In this document: positions 49,115 through 55,868 of the stretch, piece after piece
Layout: every line of letters starts with the position of its first letter
Numbering within the stretch: position 1 is the first letter of the stretch
Source: Acidobacteriota bacterium
GTDB lineage: Bacteria > Acidobacteriota > Vicinamibacteria > Vicinamibacterales > CAVVIG01
Length of the DNA: 64,000 nt
NCBI GenBank assembly: GCA_020850715.1
Contig: JADZED010000027.1
Location: 124,001 to 188,000, forward strand
Reading direction: 5' to 3'
Position numbers and translations under genes: made by a program
Notes under the pieces: generated by a model
Told to the model about the DNA's origin: nothing
Database searches by the model: none
What the model saw: the letters and a program-made list of their open reading frames with translations, nothing else

Positions 49115-50506
49115 ATGAGCCACAAGCCGAAGACGGTCCTCATCGTCGACGACGATGAGGGGATGCGAGACACGCTGACGGCGATCCTCAAGCGCGAGTA
49201 TCGCGTCCTGCGCGTCTCGAGCGGGGAAGCGGCCCTCCCCATCCTCAACAAGGAGGATGTCGACCTCGTGCTGCTCGACGTCCGCCTGCCCGGCATCAGC
49301 GGCTTCGAGGTGCTGCGCATCATCAAGGAGAACTACGGCCTCGTCGAGGTGCTGATGATCTCGGCGATTGCCGACATCGAGACCGCCGTGCAGGCGATGA
49401 AGCACGGGGCCTACCACTACGTCACCAAGGAGTTCGACTACGACCAGCTCCGATCGCTGGTGCGCAACGCGAGCGAGCGCCAGGATCTGAACCGGCAGGT
49501 GATGACGCTGTCGGCGCAGGTGGCCGACCAGGCCGAGCGCGAGTTCGTCGTCGGGCCGAGCAAGGCGACGCGCGAGATCGTCGATCTGGTGGGCCGGATC
49601 GCCAAGCTGTCGGCGACGGTGCTGATCCTGGGCGAGAGCGGGACCGGCAAGGAGCTGCTCGCGCGGCTGATCCACCGCGGGGCGGGCGATCCCGACGCGC
49701 CGTTCATCGCCGTCAACCTCGCCGCGATCCCGCGCGAGCTCGCCGAGAGCGCGCTGTTCGGCCACGAACGCGGCGCCTTCACCGGGGCGCACCGGCAGCA
49801 GCTCGGCAAGTTCGAGCTCGCGTCCAACGGCACGCTGTTCCTCGACGAGATCGGCGACCTGCGGCTCGATCTGCAGGCCAAGCTGCTGCGCGCGATCCAG
49901 GAGGGGGAGATCGAGCGCGTCGGCGGCACCAAGCCGATCAAGACCGAGTTCCGCCTGATCGCCGCGACCAACGTCGATCTCGAGAAGGCGGTGAAGGAAG
50001 GGCGCTTCCGCGAGGATCTCTACTACCGGATCAACGTCATCCCGATCAAGATGCCGCCGCTGCGCGAGCGCGCCGACGACATCCCGCAGCTCGCCGAGTT
50101 CTTCCTGCGGCGCTACACGGCCCGCTTCCGCAAGCGCATCCTGGGGATCAGCGAGCCGACGATGGCGATGCTGAAAAAGTACTGGTGGCCGGGCAACATC
50201 CGCGAGCTGGAGAACCTGATCGAGCGGCTCGTCGCGGTGAGCGACAGGGACTACCTCTCGGAAGAGGATCTGCCGCTCGAATTCCACTTCGCGCAGCTCG
50301 AGCCGCAGCGCGCCGCGCGCGGCACCAGCCTGTTCGACGAGGCGACCAACGCGTTCGAGCGGAACTTCATCCTGCGTGCGCTGGAGAAATGCGGGTGGAA
50401 CGTGACCGGCACCGCCGAGTATCTTGGAATACCACTGAGTACGCTGAAGTACAAGATGGACAAGCTCGACGTACGCCAGCTCGCCCGGAAACTGCGCGGC
50501 GCTTGA
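49115..50506 (+). CDS. NtrC-family sigma54-dependent response regulator
   Basis: REC (VLIVDDDEGMRDTL, LVLLDVRLPG), AAA+ GESGTGKELLARLIH with GAFTGA loop, Fis-like HTH C-terminus. Confidence 0.95.
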   Translation: MSHKPKTVLIVDDDEGMRDTLTAILKREYRVLRVSSGEAALPILNKEDVDLVLLDVRLPGISGFEVLRIIKENYGLVEVLMISAIADIETAVQAMKHGAYHYVTKEFDYDQLRSLVRNASERQDLNRQVMTLSAQVADQAEREFVVGPSKATREIVDLVGRIAKLSATVLILGESGTGKELLARLIHRGAGDPDAPFIAVNLAAIPRELAESALFGHERGAFTGAHRQQLGKFELASNGTLFLDEIGDLRLDLQAKLLRAIQEGEIERVGGTKPIKTEFRLIAATNVDLEKAVKEGRFREDLYYRINVIPIKMPPLRERADDIPQLAEFFLRRYTARFRKRILGISEPTMAMLKKYWWPGNIRELENLIERLVAVSDRDYLSEEDLPLEFHFAQLEPQRAARGTSLFDEATNAFERNFILRALEKCGWNVTGTAEYLGIPLSTLKYKMDKLDVRQLARKLRGA

Positions 50507-50520
50507 CAAAAGCCAACAAC

Positions 50521-50628
50521 TTGGCCGGCTCGGCCAATCGCTTGTCCCGCCGGGCAATCCCCTGAGCACGCAGCAGTAGCCGCCGCTTCCCGCGCGCGCG
50601 CCGTCCTCGCGCGGACAAGCGCTTGCCC
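50521..50628. promoter_or_regulatory. candidate enhancer (UAS) dyads for the adjacent NtrC-type regulator
   Basis: TTGGCC-N5-GGCCAA (50521-50537), TTGTCCCGCCGGGCAA (50542-50557), GGACAAGCGCTTGCCC (50613-50628). Confidence 0.4.
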
Positions 50629-50725
50629 GCGCGATCGCGCGCTCCCGCCATCGGCGAACGGACTCCACGCGACACGCGATCGAAATCGCCAGCGATCTCG
50701 CGCGCCTGCGCGGAAGCGCGCGCGC

Positions 50726-50741
50726 TGGAACACGCGTTGCT
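50726..50741 (+). promoter_or_regulatory. sigma54 (-24/-12) promoter upstream of the radical SAM gene
   Basis: TGGAACACGCGTTGCT: GG-N10-GC spacing with TGG and TTGCT core, about 50 nt before ATG 50791. Confidence 0.65.
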
Positions 50742-50790
50742 ATCCCGTGCGGCAGCGCGATCGCGCCGATCGCTACCAAGAATCGATCCC

Positions 50791-52215
50791 ATGCAGCCGT
50801 CGATCTTCAACCTGCGCGTGCCGCTGCCCGAGCGCGGCGAGGTGTTCCTGATGAACACGCTCACCGACGCGCAGGTGGTCGTCTCCTCCGACGTCGCCGA
50901 TCTGCTCGATCGCGTGGCGGAGCTGGAGGGCGGCGCTTCGATGGACGACGAGGCGCGCGGGGCGCTGCGGCTGCTCGCCGATCACGGCTTCGTGGTCGAG
51001 AGCCGCGATGCCGATCGCCAGGCGCTGGACCGGCACCTGTGGACGGCGAAGAGCGACGCGTCGGAGCTGCACGTCACCATTCTCACCACGCTGCAGTGCA
51101 ACTTCGCGTGCGACTACTGCTTCCAGGGCGACCACGGCGATTACAACAAGTTCGCCCAGAAGATGTCGATGGAGACCGCGCTGAAGGTGGCCGGCTGGAT
51201 CGAGCGCGAGCTCGATCGCGTGCGCCCCGAGCGGCTGGTCGTCCAGTTCTTCGGCGGGGAGCCGCTGCTGAACCTGCCCGCCATGTACGCGATTGCCGGG
51301 CGGGCGTGGGCGGCGGCCGGGGCGCGCGGCGTCGAGATGAAGACCAGCATCATCACCAACGGCCTGCTGCTCACCGGGGAGGTCGTCGACCGCATGATCC
51401 CGTTCGGGCTGAAGGGCGTGAAGGTGACGCTCGACGGCGACCGCGATGCGCACAACCGGATGCGGCCGCTGCGCGGCGGCCAGGGCACCTTCGACCGGAT
51501 TGTCGAGAACATCCGGCGCGTGGCCGATCGGGTGCCGATCTCGATTGGCGGGAACTTCGACGAGCAGAGCGCCGGCAGCTTTCCGGCGCTGCTCGACTTC
51601 CTGCGCGAGCAGCAGTTCGCCGACAAGCTGGTGAAGGTCAACTTCAAGCCGGTGGTGCGCACGGCCGAGCCGGCCGCGGCGGTTTCACGCCCGAAGGGCG
51701 TCTTCCCGCTCACGCTCGTGAGCGGCGACAACCGGCCGCTCGGCGGCACCTGCATGACCACGGCGGGGGCGGGCGGCGGGCTGGGCAAGGCGTGCGACTC
51801 GTGCAACGTGCTGGACGACCAGATGACGACGCTGCGGAGCGAGATCAAGCGGCACGGCTTCCCGACGCCCGACGGCGTGCACAACGGCCCCTGCCACCTG
51901 CACATGCGGCACGCCCACACCATCGGGCCCGACGGCTCGCTGTACGCCTGCCCCGGCTTCACGGGCGAGCTGTCGCAGTCGACCGGGCACATCGACGATC
52001 GGCCCGACCCCGCGCGCGCGCGCGCGCGCGAACGCTTCGACGCGCTGGATCCCTGGCGGGAGTGCGGGGACTGCGCGTTCATCCCGGTCTGTGCGGGAGG
52101 GTGCCTGGTGGCATCGCACACAGAGCTTGGCGACGCGAACCTGCCGACGTGTCACAAGCGGACGTACGAATCGGCGCTCATCGCGCTGGCGCACGAGGCG
52201 GCCGGCGCGGCTTAG
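50791..52215 (+). CDS. radical SAM/SPASM peptide maturase
   Basis: CNFACDYC (CxxxCxxC), N-terminal precursor-recognition-like region, SPASM cysteines including CGDCAFIPVCAGGC (CX2CX5CX3C). Confidence 0.93.
   Translation: MQPSIFNLRVPLPERGEVFLMNTLTDAQVVVSSDVADLLDRVAELEGGASMDDEARGALRLLADHGFVVESRDADRQALDRHLWTAKSDASELHVTILTTLQCNFACDYCFQGDHGDYNKFAQKMSMETALKVAGWIERELDRVRPERLVVQFFGGEPLLNLPAMYAIAGRAWAAAGARGVEMKTSIITNGLLLTGEVVDRMIPFGLKGVKVTLDGDRDAHNRMRPLRGGQGTFDRIVENIRRVADRVPISIGGNFDEQSAGSFPALLDFLREQQFADKLVKVNFKPVVRTAEPAAAVSRPKGVFPLTLVSGDNRPLGGTCMTTAGAGGGLGKACDSCNVLDDQMTTLRSEIKRHGFPTPDGVHNGPCHLHMRHAHTIGPDGSLYACPGFTGELSQSTGHIDDRPDPARARARERFDALDPWRECGDCAFIPVCAGGCLVASHTELGDANLPTCHKRTYESALIALAHEAAGAA
52011..52030. 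repeat. (CG)10 dinucleotide tract inside the radical SAM ORF
   Basis: CGCGCGCGCGCGCGCGCGCG encoding ...DPARARARERF... Confidence 0.9.
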
Positions 52216-52224
52216 GAGAAGACA

Positions 52225-52317
52225 ATGAAGATCAAGGTCATTCAGGCCAAGTCGAACGCGAAGCCGAGCGGGTACTGCAACTTCATGATCGACGAACCGC
52301 CGATGAACAAGAAGTAG
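52225..52317 (+). CDS. candidate RiPP precursor peptide, 30 aa: MKIKVIQAKSNAKPSGYCNFMIDEPPMNKK
   Basis: Starts 9 nt after the rSAM stop with AGGAGA SD at 52214-52219; single Cys in SGYCNF core; below the ORF-track length cutoff. Confidence 0.75.
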   Translation: MKIKVIQAKSNAKPSGYCNFMIDEPPMNKK

Positions 52318-52328
52318 AATTCCATGGA

Positions 52329-53840
52329 ATGAGCTCCCAGCAGAAACGGCGGCCGGTTCGGGCGGCCGCCGCCGCGATTCGTGTCTTATTCGCGCTGCTT
52401 CTGCTGGCGGGCACGGCCCGGTGCGATCGAAGCGCCGGCCCGGCGCGCCAGGATGGTGACGCTGTCGTCCGACTGGGTGTAAGTAGCGGCCAGGCTGCGG
52501 CTGCGAATCCCCTAAATGGGGTTGTGCAGATAATGCAGAATCTGTCGATCGAATCGCTAGCCCGCATCGGCGACGATGGACACCCTGAGCCGCAACTTGC
52601 GCAGAGCTGGACGGTTTCTGGGGACGGAAAGTCTGCAATCGTCGTCCTTCGATCTGGGGTTCAATTCAGCGATGGCACCCCGTTGCTCGCAGGGCCGATT
52701 GCAGATTTGCTGATTAGTACGCTCAAGAAGACAATGGGGCCGGCGTTCGAGGACGTGGACAAGATCGTGGCACTCAACGATAGCCAGATCAGCATCCAGT
52801 TTCGTCGGCCGTCGCCCTTCCTGTTGGAGTCCCTCGAAGTTCAGATCAGCAAGCCGGGTGCGTCTGATATCGGGACAGGCCCATTCGCCCTCGCCGGTCC
52901 GCGCGCCCCAAACGAACTCCGCGCGAATGACTCCTACTATCGCGGCCGGCCGAGCATCGATCGCATTGTGGTGGATTCCTACCCATCCGTGCGCGCCGCA
53001 TGGGCCGACTTGCTGCGTGGTCACCTCGACATGCTGTACGAAACGGGCGTCGATGCCCTCGACTCGCTCCAGTCGTCGTCGAGCGTGAATGTCTACACGT
53101 TCACCCGCCGATATCAGTATGAGGTGGTGCTTAATACCGATGCCCCCGCTCTCAGGTCGCCTCGGCTCCGCAGAGCGCTGAACCTGGGAATCGATCGTCA
53201 GGCCTTCGTTCGCGATGCGCTCAAAGGACAGGGACTGCCGTCTTATGGCTTCGTGTGGCCGAAGCATTGGGCTCTTGGCGGTAGTGTCGACACCTTTAGC
53301 TATAATCCTGAGCTCGCGTCACGACTTCTGAAAGCAGAGGGCAAGCAGGTGCGCTTCACTTGCCTCGTCCCGCCGGATTATGAGCGGCTTGCACTGATCG
53401 TTAAGCAGCAGTTGCAGGCATACGGTGTGGAAATGCTGCTCAAGCTCACGACGCCAATGGACGCGTCGAAGGCAATAGCGACGGGGGACTTCGAAGCCGT
53501 ATTGATCGATGTGATCAGTGGAGCCAGTCTCTTTCGCCCCTATCGGATTTGGCATACGGGCGGCTCCATGAACCCGGGCCACCTGGGCAGCCCGGCCCTG
53601 GACCGGGTCCTCGACGGCATCCGCCACGCCGCCTCCGACGACGACTACCGCGCCGCGGTCGCCGCCCTCCAGCAGCAGGTCGCAGACGACCCGCCCGCCC
53701 TCTTCCTCGCCTGGAGCGCCCGCGCGCGCGCCGTCAGCAGCCGCTTCGTCGTTCCGCCGACCGAGCCGGGGCGCGACATCCTCGCCTCGCTCCCCTACTG
53801 GACCCTGAACGGCGAGTACCCGGTCGCCAGAGTCCACTGA
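52329..53840 (+). CDS. extracellular solute-binding protein family 5 (peptide-binding type), orphan
   Basis: Hydrophobic export signal; LAQSWTVSGDGKSAIVVLRSGVQFSDGTPL; RRALNLGIDRQAFVRDAL; no permease or ATPase gene adjacent. Confidence 0.88.
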   Translation: MSSQQKRRPVRAAAAAIRVLFALLLLAGTARCDRSAGPARQDGDAVVRLGVSSGQAAAANPLNGVVQIMQNLSIESLARIGDDGHPEPQLAQSWTVSGDGKSAIVVLRSGVQFSDGTPLLAGPIADLLISTLKKTMGPAFEDVDKIVALNDSQISIQFRRPSPFLLESLEVQISKPGASDIGTGPFALAGPRAPNELRANDSYYRGRPSIDRIVVDSYPSVRAAWADLLRGHLDMLYETGVDALDSLQSSSSVNVYTFTRRYQYEVVLNTDAPALRSPRLRRALNLGIDRQAFVRDALKGQGLPSYGFVWPKHWALGGSVDTFSYNPELASRLLKAEGKQVRFTCLVPPDYERLALIVKQQLQAYGVEMLLKLTTPMDASKAIATGDFEAVLIDVISGASLFRPYRIWHTGGSMNPGHLGSPALDRVLDGIRHAASDDDYRAAVAALQQQVADDPPALFLAWSARARAVSSRFVVPPTEPGRDILASLPYWTLNGEYPVARVH

Positions 53841-53841
53841 C

Positions 53842-55605
53842 ATGGGCCTGCGCATCAGGCACCTTGCGACCCGCTTCGCCCTCCTGCTCGCCCTCGCGGC
53901 CATCGTCCCGCTCGTCGGCTACGGCGCCATCTCCATCCTCTCGCTGCAGCGCGCCACCCGCGAATCGGTCGTCGCCGGCAACGAGAACGTCGCCACCCGC
54001 GCCGCCGAGGAGATCCGCCGCTACATCACGACCGATGCCGAGATCCTCAAGGCGCTCGCCGCCGACCTCCAGGACACCGGGCTCACGCAGGCCCAACAGG
54101 ACCGCATCCTGAAGAACTACATCCTGCAGTTCCAGGAGTTCCACGAGCTGACGCTGTTCGACAAGGACGGCCGCCCGCTCGCCACGAGCCGCATCGGCGA
54201 GGCGACCGTCCCGATCCCGTCGCGCGCGACAACGACGGTCAACGACGTGGAGATGTCGCCGATCCGCGTGGACGACGACCTGCTGCCGACCGCTCTCTTC
54301 GCCGTCCGCCTGACGCACCTGAACCAGCCGGCCGGCTGGCTCGTCGGCGAGATCAGCGTCGAAGAGATGTGGCGCATGGTCGACCGGATCCGCATCGGCC
54401 GACGCGGCTTCGCGCTGGTCGTCGCGCCCGACGGCCAGCTCGTCGCCCACGGCGACCCCGACAAGAAGACGCTCATCGCCCAGGCCACCAACCTGTCGGC
54501 GCACCCGCTCGTGCAGGCGGCGGGGCTGCCGGGCGCCAAAGGTCCGATCTCGCTCGAGTACCTCAGCGCCGAGGGCTTCACCGATCTGGGCGCCGCGGCC
54601 AGGATTCCCGGCCTCGACTGGACGGTGATCGTCGAGCAGCCGACCGAGGAAGCCTATGCGGCCGCCGATCAGCTCCGGCGGCAGCTCGTCGCCGCCATCT
54701 CGATCGCGCTCTTCGCGATGATTGCCGCCGGCTGGGTGTGGGGACGCTCGTTCATCACGCCGATTCTCGCGCTGAAGCGCGCCACGCACGAGGTGGCATC
54801 GGGGCAGCTCGAGACGCGCGTGCGCATCGACCGGGCCGACGAGCTCGGCGACCTGGAGCAGTCGTTCAACACGATGGCGGAACGGCTGGTCAAGCTGCAG
54901 GAGGAGGTGAAGCGGCAGGCGCAGCACGCGATGTTCGGCCGGCTCGCCGCCGGCCTGGTCCACGATCTCTCGCACCCGATCCAGAACATCGGCAACAGCA
55001 CGAAGCTGATGATGCGCGACGACGTGGACGCCGAGTCGCGGGAGATGTTCCGCCGGACCGTGGATCGCGAGATCGCCACGCTCAAGCGCTTCCTCGACGA
55101 TCTGCGCAACGTGGTCAAGCCGAAGCCGATCGAGCGTTTCGCGATGGACGTCAACGCCGCGGTCGCCGAGATCGTCGACTCGATGCGCCCGCAGGGCGAG
55201 CGCAGCGGCGTCGGCGTGGAAGCGCAGCTCGCGCCGGGGCCGCTCGCGATCGAGGGCGATCGCTTCGCGCTCGGCCGCGTGTTCCGCAACCTGATCGCCA
55301 ACGCGATCCAGGCCACCGCGGCCGGCGGCCGCGTCCTGGTGACGACGGTCCGCGAGGGCGGCGTCGTGCAGATCTCGGTGGCCGACACCGGCAGCGGCAT
55401 CCCGGCCGACCGGCTCCCGACCATCTTCGACGAGTTCGTCACCACCAAGGCGCGCGGCCTCGGCCTCGGCCTCGCGATCTCCAAGCGCATCGTCGAACAG
55501 CTCGACGGCACGATCGCCGTGGCGAGCGAAGTCGGACACGGCACCGCGTTCACCCTCCGGTTCCCGGCCCGCGACGACGACGCCGCGCAGGCGGCCGCGA
55601 GTTGA
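53842..55605 (+). CDS. sensor histidine kinase with extracytoplasmic Cache-like domain and HAMP
   Basis: Two TMs, HAMP (ITPILALKRATHEVASGQLETRVRIDRADELGDLEQSFNTMAERL), H box LAAGLVHDLSHPIQNIGNS, HATPase NLIANAIQATAAGG...DTGSGIP. Confidence 0.93.
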   Translation: MGLRIRHLATRFALLLALAAIVPLVGYGAISILSLQRATRESVVAGNENVATRAAEEIRRYITTDAEILKALAADLQDTGLTQAQQDRILKNYILQFQEFHELTLFDKDGRPLATSRIGEATVPIPSRATTTVNDVEMSPIRVDDDLLPTALFAVRLTHLNQPAGWLVGEISVEEMWRMVDRIRIGRRGFALVVAPDGQLVAHGDPDKKTLIAQATNLSAHPLVQAAGLPGAKGPISLEYLSAEGFTDLGAAARIPGLDWTVIVEQPTEEAYAAADQLRRQLVAAISIALFAMIAAGWVWGRSFITPILALKRATHEVASGQLETRVRIDRADELGDLEQSFNTMAERLVKLQEEVKRQAQHAMFGRLAAGLVHDLSHPIQNIGNSTKLMMRDDVDAESREMFRRTVDREIATLKRFLDDLRNVVKPKPIERFAMDVNAAVAEIVDSMRPQGERSGVGVEAQLAPGPLAIEGDRFALGRVFRNLIANAIQATAAGGRVLVTTVREGGVVQISVADTGSGIPADRLPTIFDEFVTTKARGLGLGLAISKRIVEQLDGTIAVASEVGHGTAFTLRFPARDDDAAQAAAS

Positions 55606-55625
55606 CAGTTGTGAGGAGGCAGGTC

Positions 55626-55868
55626 ATGTCCAGAACGCTCGTCAAGACCGAACAGGTCGCCGTCGGCACGCAATCGGTGTCGGTGCGCTACTTCGCGCTG
55701 CGGACGCCGCGCGGCGCGAAACGCTACAGCGCCGAGATCCTGCTGGCGCCCGGCGACCGCGTCATCCTCGACGACGACTCGGTCGTGAAGCTCGAGGCGA
55801 AGACGGCGCGGCTGGTGCCGGCCACGCTCTACAGCCGGACGCTCGCCGGCCGCGCGCACGCCGCGTAG
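55626..55868 (+). CDS. small hypothetical protein (80 aa)
   Basis: MSRTLVKTEQVAVGTQSVSVRYFALRTPRGAKRYSAEILL...; strong SD GAGGAGG, 20 nt after kinase stop. Confidence 0.65.
   Translation: MSRTLVKTEQVAVGTQSVSVRYFALRTPRGAKRYSAEILLAPGDRVILDDDSVVKLEAKTARLVPATLYSRTLAGRAHAA

Follow-up and report, generated by a model that had tools for sequence, protein, structure and literature searches.

A conserved radical SAM/SPASM peptide module co-encoded with a solute-binding protein and a sensor kinase: a candidate peptide-sensing operon of Vicinamibacterales

Introduction

In the LuxP-LuxQ-LuxO quorum-sensing system, a membrane kinase to which a periplasmic solute-binding protein (SBP) presents the signal acts on a regulator of the NtrC family. 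Pathways in which a radical SAM (rSAM)/SPASM enzyme acts on a short peptide include antimicrobial and redox-cofactor kinds. Here we describe an operon in a 64,000-nucleotide stretch of DNA from an acidobacterium of the order Vicinamibacterales (contig JADZED010000027.1; the window is the whole of this stretch), which encodes an rSAM/SPASM protein, a 30-residue peptide, an orphan family-5 SBP and a histidine kinase next to an NtrC-type response regulator. All the parts are of known kinds; the combination and the precursor family were met neither in the literature searched nor in NCBIfam. A literature search, in which coverage of subscription journals was limited, gave no description of this system. 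To our knowledge, little is known of the signalling of Vicinamibacterales, which are widespread Acidobacteriota of soil and groundwater, or of their ribosomally synthesized and post-translationally modified peptides (RiPPs).

The architecture of SBP, membrane kinase and NtrC-family regulator is the same as in LuxP-LuxQ-LuxO, but the signal of the latter is autoinducer 2 (AI-2), its kinase is a hybrid one working through a phosphorelay and its SBP is of another family; the two systems are not homologous. The geopeptide family (TIGR04280) is related on the side of the enzyme. It gives the best family match of our rSAM, the enzymes belong to a related clade, and a short Cys peptide with a leader strand lies beside the rSAM gene in both cases. 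However, the geopeptide precursor is encoded upstream and has a CC core, whereas here it is downstream with a single invariant Cys; besides, geopeptide loci lack an SBP or dCache kinase of the type found here, and their enzymes form a separate clade of the tree.

SCIFF-derived ranthipeptides are reported to act in clostridial quorum sensing, going by the account cited in PMC8102284 (Chen et al. 2020). They share with our system the rSAM/SPASM fold (CteB being the closest, with a leader-binding domain that is predicted here), a Cys-centred core and, as far as that account goes, the link of an rSAM RiPP to cell-cell communication, but they have six Cys against one in a short core here, an SBP and a kinase are not known for them, and the thioether is putative in our case. 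For methanobactin, a TonB-dependent return that regulates its own operon has been proposed (PMC3621798), a route like the one suggested below; it also has a precursor of 23–35 residues, a Lys/Arg-rich leader and a Cys core. Its chemistry, in contrast, is that of MbnB/MbnC, whereas the modifying enzyme encoded here is an rSAM and no mbnB or mbnC was seen in the loci read; its regulation is of the FecIRA sigma type instead of kinase-NtrC, and copper binding is not indicated here. Finally, the streptococcal Rgg/SHP-RaS-RiPP systems tie the production of an rSAM RiPP to a peptide quorum circuit (PMC13361665, PMC8092268). In these Gram-positives the RiPP is the output of sensing, whereas in our bacteria, of Gram-negative type, the sensor unit is encoded together with the RiPP. 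By the sequence tests that were run, the module is outside the geopeptide, PapB, SCIFF ranthipeptide and methanobactin families.

A conserved unit of maturase, peptide, binding protein and kinase

Orthologues of the rSAM at 53% identity or more are present in over half of 60 relatives. When the window genes were searched by tblastn against 34 loci of the order, the sequence regulator, rSAM, peptide, SBP, kinase was fixed wherever enough DNA was available. The operon is flanked by lpd/odhB on one side and by HU, queF and a gene like the C-terminal part of MutS2 on the other, in many families of Vicinamibacterales. Among 396 sampled Acidobacteriota genomes, rSAM matches at 1e-60 are confined to this order, and the named records among the rSAM matches include Vicinamibacterales metagenome-assembled genomes.

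The same genes occur outside the phylum. A Nitrospirota contig (L109) carries the rSAM (35% identity), a peptide of 23 residues, the SBP (28%) and the kinase (37%) among unrelated flanking genes, with no regulator; a search of the phylum added six more genomes, making seven with the module, all with flanks different from those in the order. In one of these Nitrospirota modules (L241:5294-8568) there are two SBP genes in tandem. The gene set is found once more, again with other flanks, in a single genome (L277) sampled from a third phylum, to which a Desulfobacterales genome belongs.

In eight genomes without the rSAM, the regulator is kept between lpd/odhB and HU and the rSAM, peptide, SBP and kinase genes are gone jointly. 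Otherwise, a kinase without rSAM was found only at contig ends or, in G021, as a frameshifted remnant; this decaying locus (L077:7225-11078) keeps the regulator and a palindrome, the rSAM, peptide and SBP having disappeared. Since four genes are lost together while the regulator stays, we regard the four as the unit (called here the module) and the regulator as a separable partner. We considered whether regulator and module always go together one to one and rejected this, as the regulator persists alone. With this synteny across phyla, the joint loss and the single rSAM clade described below, the grouping of rSAM, peptide, SBP and kinase, which a first-pass annotation of the window had put forward, is well supported, and it is very likely that the four work as one system.

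The precursor peptide and its maturase

The 30-residue open reading frame (ORF) is preceded by a ribosome site, AGGAGA, and its G+C content at third codon positions (GC3) is 0.93, against 0.94 in the neighbouring genes. In essentially all loci for which the sequence suffices, a homologous ORF of 23–35 residues occupies the equivalent position, measuring 29–35 residues in the order and 23–26 in the other phyla, and in a few loci (e.g. L058, by eye) it overlaps the rSAM stop codon. This conservation across loci and phyla rules out a chance reading frame; the first-pass annotation had made its proposal depend on such a peptide adjoining orthologous rSAM genes. Codon-position differences among six peptides of equal length were uninformative (199, 164, 203). 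One locus (L057) has two tandem, nearly identical precursors 3' of the rSAM gene (..CPWILDEPPAAKN and ..CPWILDEPPASKQ).

Cys is the sole invariant residue of the 36 peptides compared, within the frame M-K-I-x-V-V-K-K ... K-P ... C-x-[hydrophobic/aromatic]-x-[I/V/L]. A D or E follows directly in most Acidobacteriota, and the Nitrospirota peptides stop before it; because the latter end right after the C-terminal motif, the core can be put at some six residues. NCBIfam and domain searches gave no family match for the 30-mer, and the first-pass annotation had not recognised it as a named family either. The likeness of the leader to the methanobactin precursor is weak (TIGR04071, E 0.13, two of the 36 peptides). 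The A6 members have a leader, M[KT]I[KR]IVK[KR], that is similar to methanobactin precursor leaders, possibly by convergence. This is a deeply conserved family of rSAM precursors that falls outside every NCBIfam model, whatever the ligand of the SBP proves to be.

The rSAM carries the CX3CX2C motif and the full SPASM Cys set, CX9-15GX4C...CX2CX5CX3C...C, and in 28 orthologues C103/C107/C110 and C368/G382/C387/C425/C428/C434/C438/C454 are invariant. No curated NCBIfam model claims it: the best match, to the geopeptide maturase, reaches 251 bits for a cut-off of 400, and the PapB and SCIFF maturase models give 121 of 340 and 94 of 425 bits. When 64 rSAMs were placed in a maximum-likelihood tree, the 24 enzymes of the module fell into a single group (99/98; 200/200 bootstrap trees) apart from the geopeptide enzymes. 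More distant rSAM matches in the two other phyla come without such an SBP or kinase, and many of them have geopeptide-like CC peptides upstream. Simple membership in the geopeptide family was thus rejected on the score, the separate clade and the downstream peptide with its single Cys. One distant rSAM (L278:2961-8850) has a CYCC peptide; its neighbours look by eye like genes for a permease of the FecCD/BtuC type, for a binding protein of the BtuF type and for the biosynthesis of cobalamin.

The structural model of the rSAM (predicted local distance difference test, pLDDT, 78) has CteB (5wgg/5why) as the closest solved fold, over domain and core, followed by TigE. Its N-terminal beta3-alpha3 unit, modelled at good confidence, is predicted to be a leader-binding domain like a RiPP recognition element (RRE). 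Since the closest fold is that of the thioether-forming CteB, a thioether of the ranthipeptide/sactipeptide type is the most likely chemistry on the basis of the model. We have little doubt that the rSAM modifies the peptide.

The solute-binding protein and the kinase

In the module neighbourhoods examined, no permease or ATPase of an ATP-binding cassette (ABC) transporter adjoins the SBP, which is co-encoded throughout with the periplasmic-domain kinase, a pairing on which the first-pass annotation had also staked its reading; a permease encoded at a distance may still serve the SBP. The SBP is a probable lipoprotein in most orthologues, the lipobox in the window (TARC) being atypical. Its model (pLDDT 90) matches NikZ, AppA, CtaP and other family-5 binders; AppA is a peptide binder, and AapF, also among the matches, has been solved with a signalling molecule.

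Within the family of the window's genome, regulators share 88% identity in the pairwise mean, rSAMs 69% and kinases likewise 69%, and the value falls to 43% for the module SBP; for comparison, a transporter SBP encoded beside the subtilase described below is 62% identical in its N-terminal part. Moreover, distances between peptide cores correlate with distances between SBPs after control for the rSAM (partial r 0.28, permutation p 0.0005), and less so with those between kinases (0.13, p 0.04), in a test that permutes taxa and removes shared ancestry only partly. These patterns fit the SBP being a receptor of a diversifying peptide. It is slightly more likely than not that the peptide product or its complex is the ligand of the SBP.

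The 3' end of the SBP gene (53529-53840) shows a rise of GC3 from ~0.69 to 0.93 within the gene, a possible recombination boundary. A recent import of the SBP gene, as its low GC3 might suggest, was rejected, as GC3 is lower in the SBP than in the kinase gene in nearly all orthologous loci.

Promoter, regulator sites and a second target

A sigma54 -24/-12 element lies 5' of the rSAM gene in 27 of 29 loci of the order (p ~0.03 or less against shuffles), 30–120 nt before it in most, and in all seven tested loci of other phyla. Between regulator and rSAM genes there are phased palindromes, GGNCAA-N4-TTGNCC, spaced by ~21 bp and by ~60–80 bp; one to four occur in 19 of 27 such intergenic regions, when ~0.1–0.3 are expected. 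The exact palindrome is found twice in the window's 3.6-Mb genome, both copies being at this promoter, and its reversed control six times. The relaxed form GGNCARNNNNYTGNCC has 24 sites in the genome against 30 for the control, so that only clusters or exact sites are informative. The promoter and upstream sites expected of a sigma54/NtrC regulon are therefore both present, with the candidate enhancer palindromes found in part of the order only. In four loci (L055, L056, L060 and L062) a different palindrome, TTGCAGAAATTGCAA-like, replaces GGNCAA-N4-TTGNCC in this intergenic region.

In related genomes, clusters of the palindrome are also found 5' of a secreted subtilase (PF00082, with C-terminal TIVWG repeats), whose gene is often divergent from an SBP5-DppBC peptide importer. 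At least one site within two mismatches occurs at 28 of 30 subtilase loci (0.1–0.5 expected by chance). The sites are commonly two or three with the same phasing, pairs being ~20 or ~96–120 bp apart, and many of the loci also have a sigma54-like element. Two genomes that lack the regulator (G035 and G055; L346/L366 and L367) have no clustered sites at their orthologous loci, a comparison of two cases. From this correlation we infer that the regulator would bind GGNCAA-N4-TTGNCC sites; it also seems to control the secreted protease. Subtilases with C-terminal TIVWG/DTIVWGS repeats make up a large paralogous family in the order (L359:5100-6818 (G000:C1), L309, L311, L312), and in several genomes the next gene after the palindrome-bearing one encodes a membrane protein in which an HD-GYP domain is apparent by eye.

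The NtrC regulator probably drives the operon. The first-pass annotation had proposed as much, and the sigma54 promoter and the unique palindromes give strong circumstantial support, the part to be amended being that the regulator is separable and kept in the eight genomes without the module.

Proposed mechanism

We propose that the N-terminal domain of the rSAM would bind the K-rich N-terminal beta-strand leader (MKIxVVKK), and that the enzyme would modify the short C-terminal core around the invariant Cys (C-x-hydrophobic-x-[IVL], then D/E in most Acidobacteriota). The product would get to the periplasm either directly or by secretion and return, in two Nitrospirota loci perhaps by way of the TonB receptor encoded next to the module. 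In the periplasm it would be bound by the lipoprotein SBP and presented to the dCache histidine kinase, which would signal to the NtrC-type regulator. The latter, on GGNCAA-N4-TTGNCC sites, would activate the sigma54 promoter of the rSAM-peptide-SBP-kinase operon, giving positive feedback, and in Vicinamibacterales it would also activate the secreted subtilase and often the divergent peptide importer.

The computed basis of this scheme is gene order, peptide conservation, sigma54 promoters, site distribution, the rSAM clade, joint loss and fast SBP evolution, from which we infer the modification, the identity of the ligand, the pairing of kinase and regulator, export and the self-sensing role. 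That a small rSAM-modified peptide is both produced and detected by this operon, with NtrC feedback on the operon itself and on exoproteolysis, is in our opinion a finely balanced proposition. A further step, which we hold only tentatively and with more doubt than confidence, is that the modified peptide is an intercellular pheromone or autoinducer of outer-membrane bacteria, which is released, re-enters the periplasm (by a TonB receptor dedicated to it in some lineages), meets a lipoprotein SBP that diversifies rapidly and serves the dCache kinase as receptor, and by way of the NtrC regulator amplifies itself and controls secreted proteolysis.

Several observations, besides the limit of the co-variation test given above, weigh against the scheme. 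Families f4, f5 and f6 have no GGNCAA palindrome at the module promoter, yet keep it at subtilase promoters, and because of this absence another regulator might bind their module promoters; some of these families have the other palindrome, TTGCAGAAATTGCAA, there. In the window's own genome the paired sites before the subtilase gene are weak, and scoring for sigma54 elements gave no strong match there. Outside the order, an orthologous regulator is present in five of eight module genomes and also in two of 17 without the module. No TonB receptor adjoins an Acidobacteriota operon. Neither an exporter nor a leader peptidase is conserved in the operon, so that the release of the peptide is left unexplained.

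With peptide, maturase, putative receptor, kinase and regulator within 6.8 kb, plus exact sites unique in the genome, the locus nevertheless offers a complete hypothesis, each part of which can be tested. Should the peptide prove to be the ligand, rSAM peptide chemistry would be linked to SBP-kinase signal reception in diderm bacteria, and a modified peptide may control extracellular proteolysis in soil. Gram-negative bacteria may have here a new means of sensing their own kind or their neighbours and of switching on a secreted protein-digesting enzyme. If the pheromone reading is true, Acidobacteriota, Nitrospirota and a third phylum would share a pheromone system based on a RiPP, each lineage with receptors of its own.

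Alternative explanations

The alternative that survives best, although we think it unlikely, is a nutrient sensor, in which SBP and kinase detect oligopeptides from environmental protein and induce the subtilase and the importer, the modified peptide being no pheromone but an accessory (for instance a cofactor, a competitor that tunes the response or a ligand that holds the place). The oligopeptide/nickel binder family of the SBP, the subtilase as predicted second target, with an SBP5-DppBC importer often encoded divergently from it, and the retention of the regulator without the peptide module would all agree with such a sensor. Nevertheless, the peptide-maturase pair is present with every intact sensor unit in three phyla, the peptide core and the SBP co-vary, and the module SBP diverges at a much higher rate than that of the transporter, which is not what one expects of a binder of peptides in general.

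The evidence at the outer membrane, which counts in favour of the proposed mechanism, also bears on a second alternative. A BtuB-like TonB receptor is encoded directly 5' of the rSAM gene in two Nitrospirota loci, L241 and L246, and such a receptor follows the regulator gene in L246, L361 and L362; these adjacent genes suggest that the product has to be taken in through the outer membrane. A locus with a related rSAM (L279:3741-8695) has the order TonB receptor, SBP5, 47-residue CC peptide, rSAM, with no kinase seen on the short contig, and this gene set supports a TonB/SBP link for such peptides. The same receptors, together with NikZ/NikA among the closest SBP folds and the weak likeness of the leader to the methanobactin precursor, would fit a metallophore-like RiPP. 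Such a modified Cys peptide would bind metal and, once secreted, be brought back to the SBP by a TonB receptor, and the metal-peptide complex would be what the kinase reports. We consider it more improbable still than a nutrient sensor: the core has a single invariant Cys and few other metal ligands, in Nitrospirota especially, the predicted second target is a protease rather than metal genes, and there is neither a metal permease nor, beside the Acidobacteriota operons, a TonB receptor.

Finally, a secreted peptide for antimicrobial action or cannibalism that comes with a sensor, or else a redox cofactor pathway like those of pyrroloquinoline quinone (PQQ) or mycofactocin, is very improbable in spite of both kinds occurring among rSAM/SPASM short-peptide pathways, for immunity, exporter, peptidase and dehydrogenase genes are not conserved in the operon and neither kind explains the constant SBP-kinase pair.

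Layout of the locus

The coordinates of the features are collected in Table 1. All six ORFs of the first-pass annotation were found where it had placed them, and its assignments of the NtrC-type regulator, the radical SAM/SPASM protein, the SBP (SBP_bac_5, PF00496) and the sensor kinase hold. The tight spacing that it had described 3' of the rSAM gene corresponds to gaps of 9, 11, 1 and 20 nt.

Table 1. Features of the operon and its upstream region, in window positions.
Feature	Position	Strand	Basis
NtrC-type response regulator (receiver, sigma54 AAA+ with GAFTGA loop, Fis-type helix-turn-helix)	49115..50506	+	Domains; orthologues with 62–90% identity in the same position
Palindrome AGCCAACAACTTGGCC, candidate regulator enhancer site, one mismatch	50511..50526	.	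Site scan
Palindrome GGCCAATCGCTTGTCC, candidate enhancer site, exact	50532..50547	.	The whole 3.6-Mb genome has two exact matches, this being one
Palindrome GGACAAGCGCTTGCCC, candidate enhancer site, exact	50613..50628	.	The other exact match in the genome
Sigma54 (-24/-12) promoter TGGAACACGCGTTGCT, 65 nt 5' of the rSAM start	50726..50741	+	Comparable site at most loci
Radical SAM/SPASM peptide maturase with predicted N-terminal beta3-alpha3 (RRE-like) domain	50791..52215	+	Domains, motifs, model
30-residue precursor peptide MKIKVIQAKSNAKPSGYCNFMIDEPPMNKK	52225..52317	+	Conservation, ribosome site, GC3
Orphan family-5 solute-binding protein	52329..53840	+	Domain, fold; fastest-evolving component
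Histidine kinase (periplasmic dCache, HAMP, HisKA, HATPase)	53842..55605	+	Domains
80-residue accessory protein with no assigned function	55626..55868	+	In many but not all loci of the order; not found in loci of other phyla

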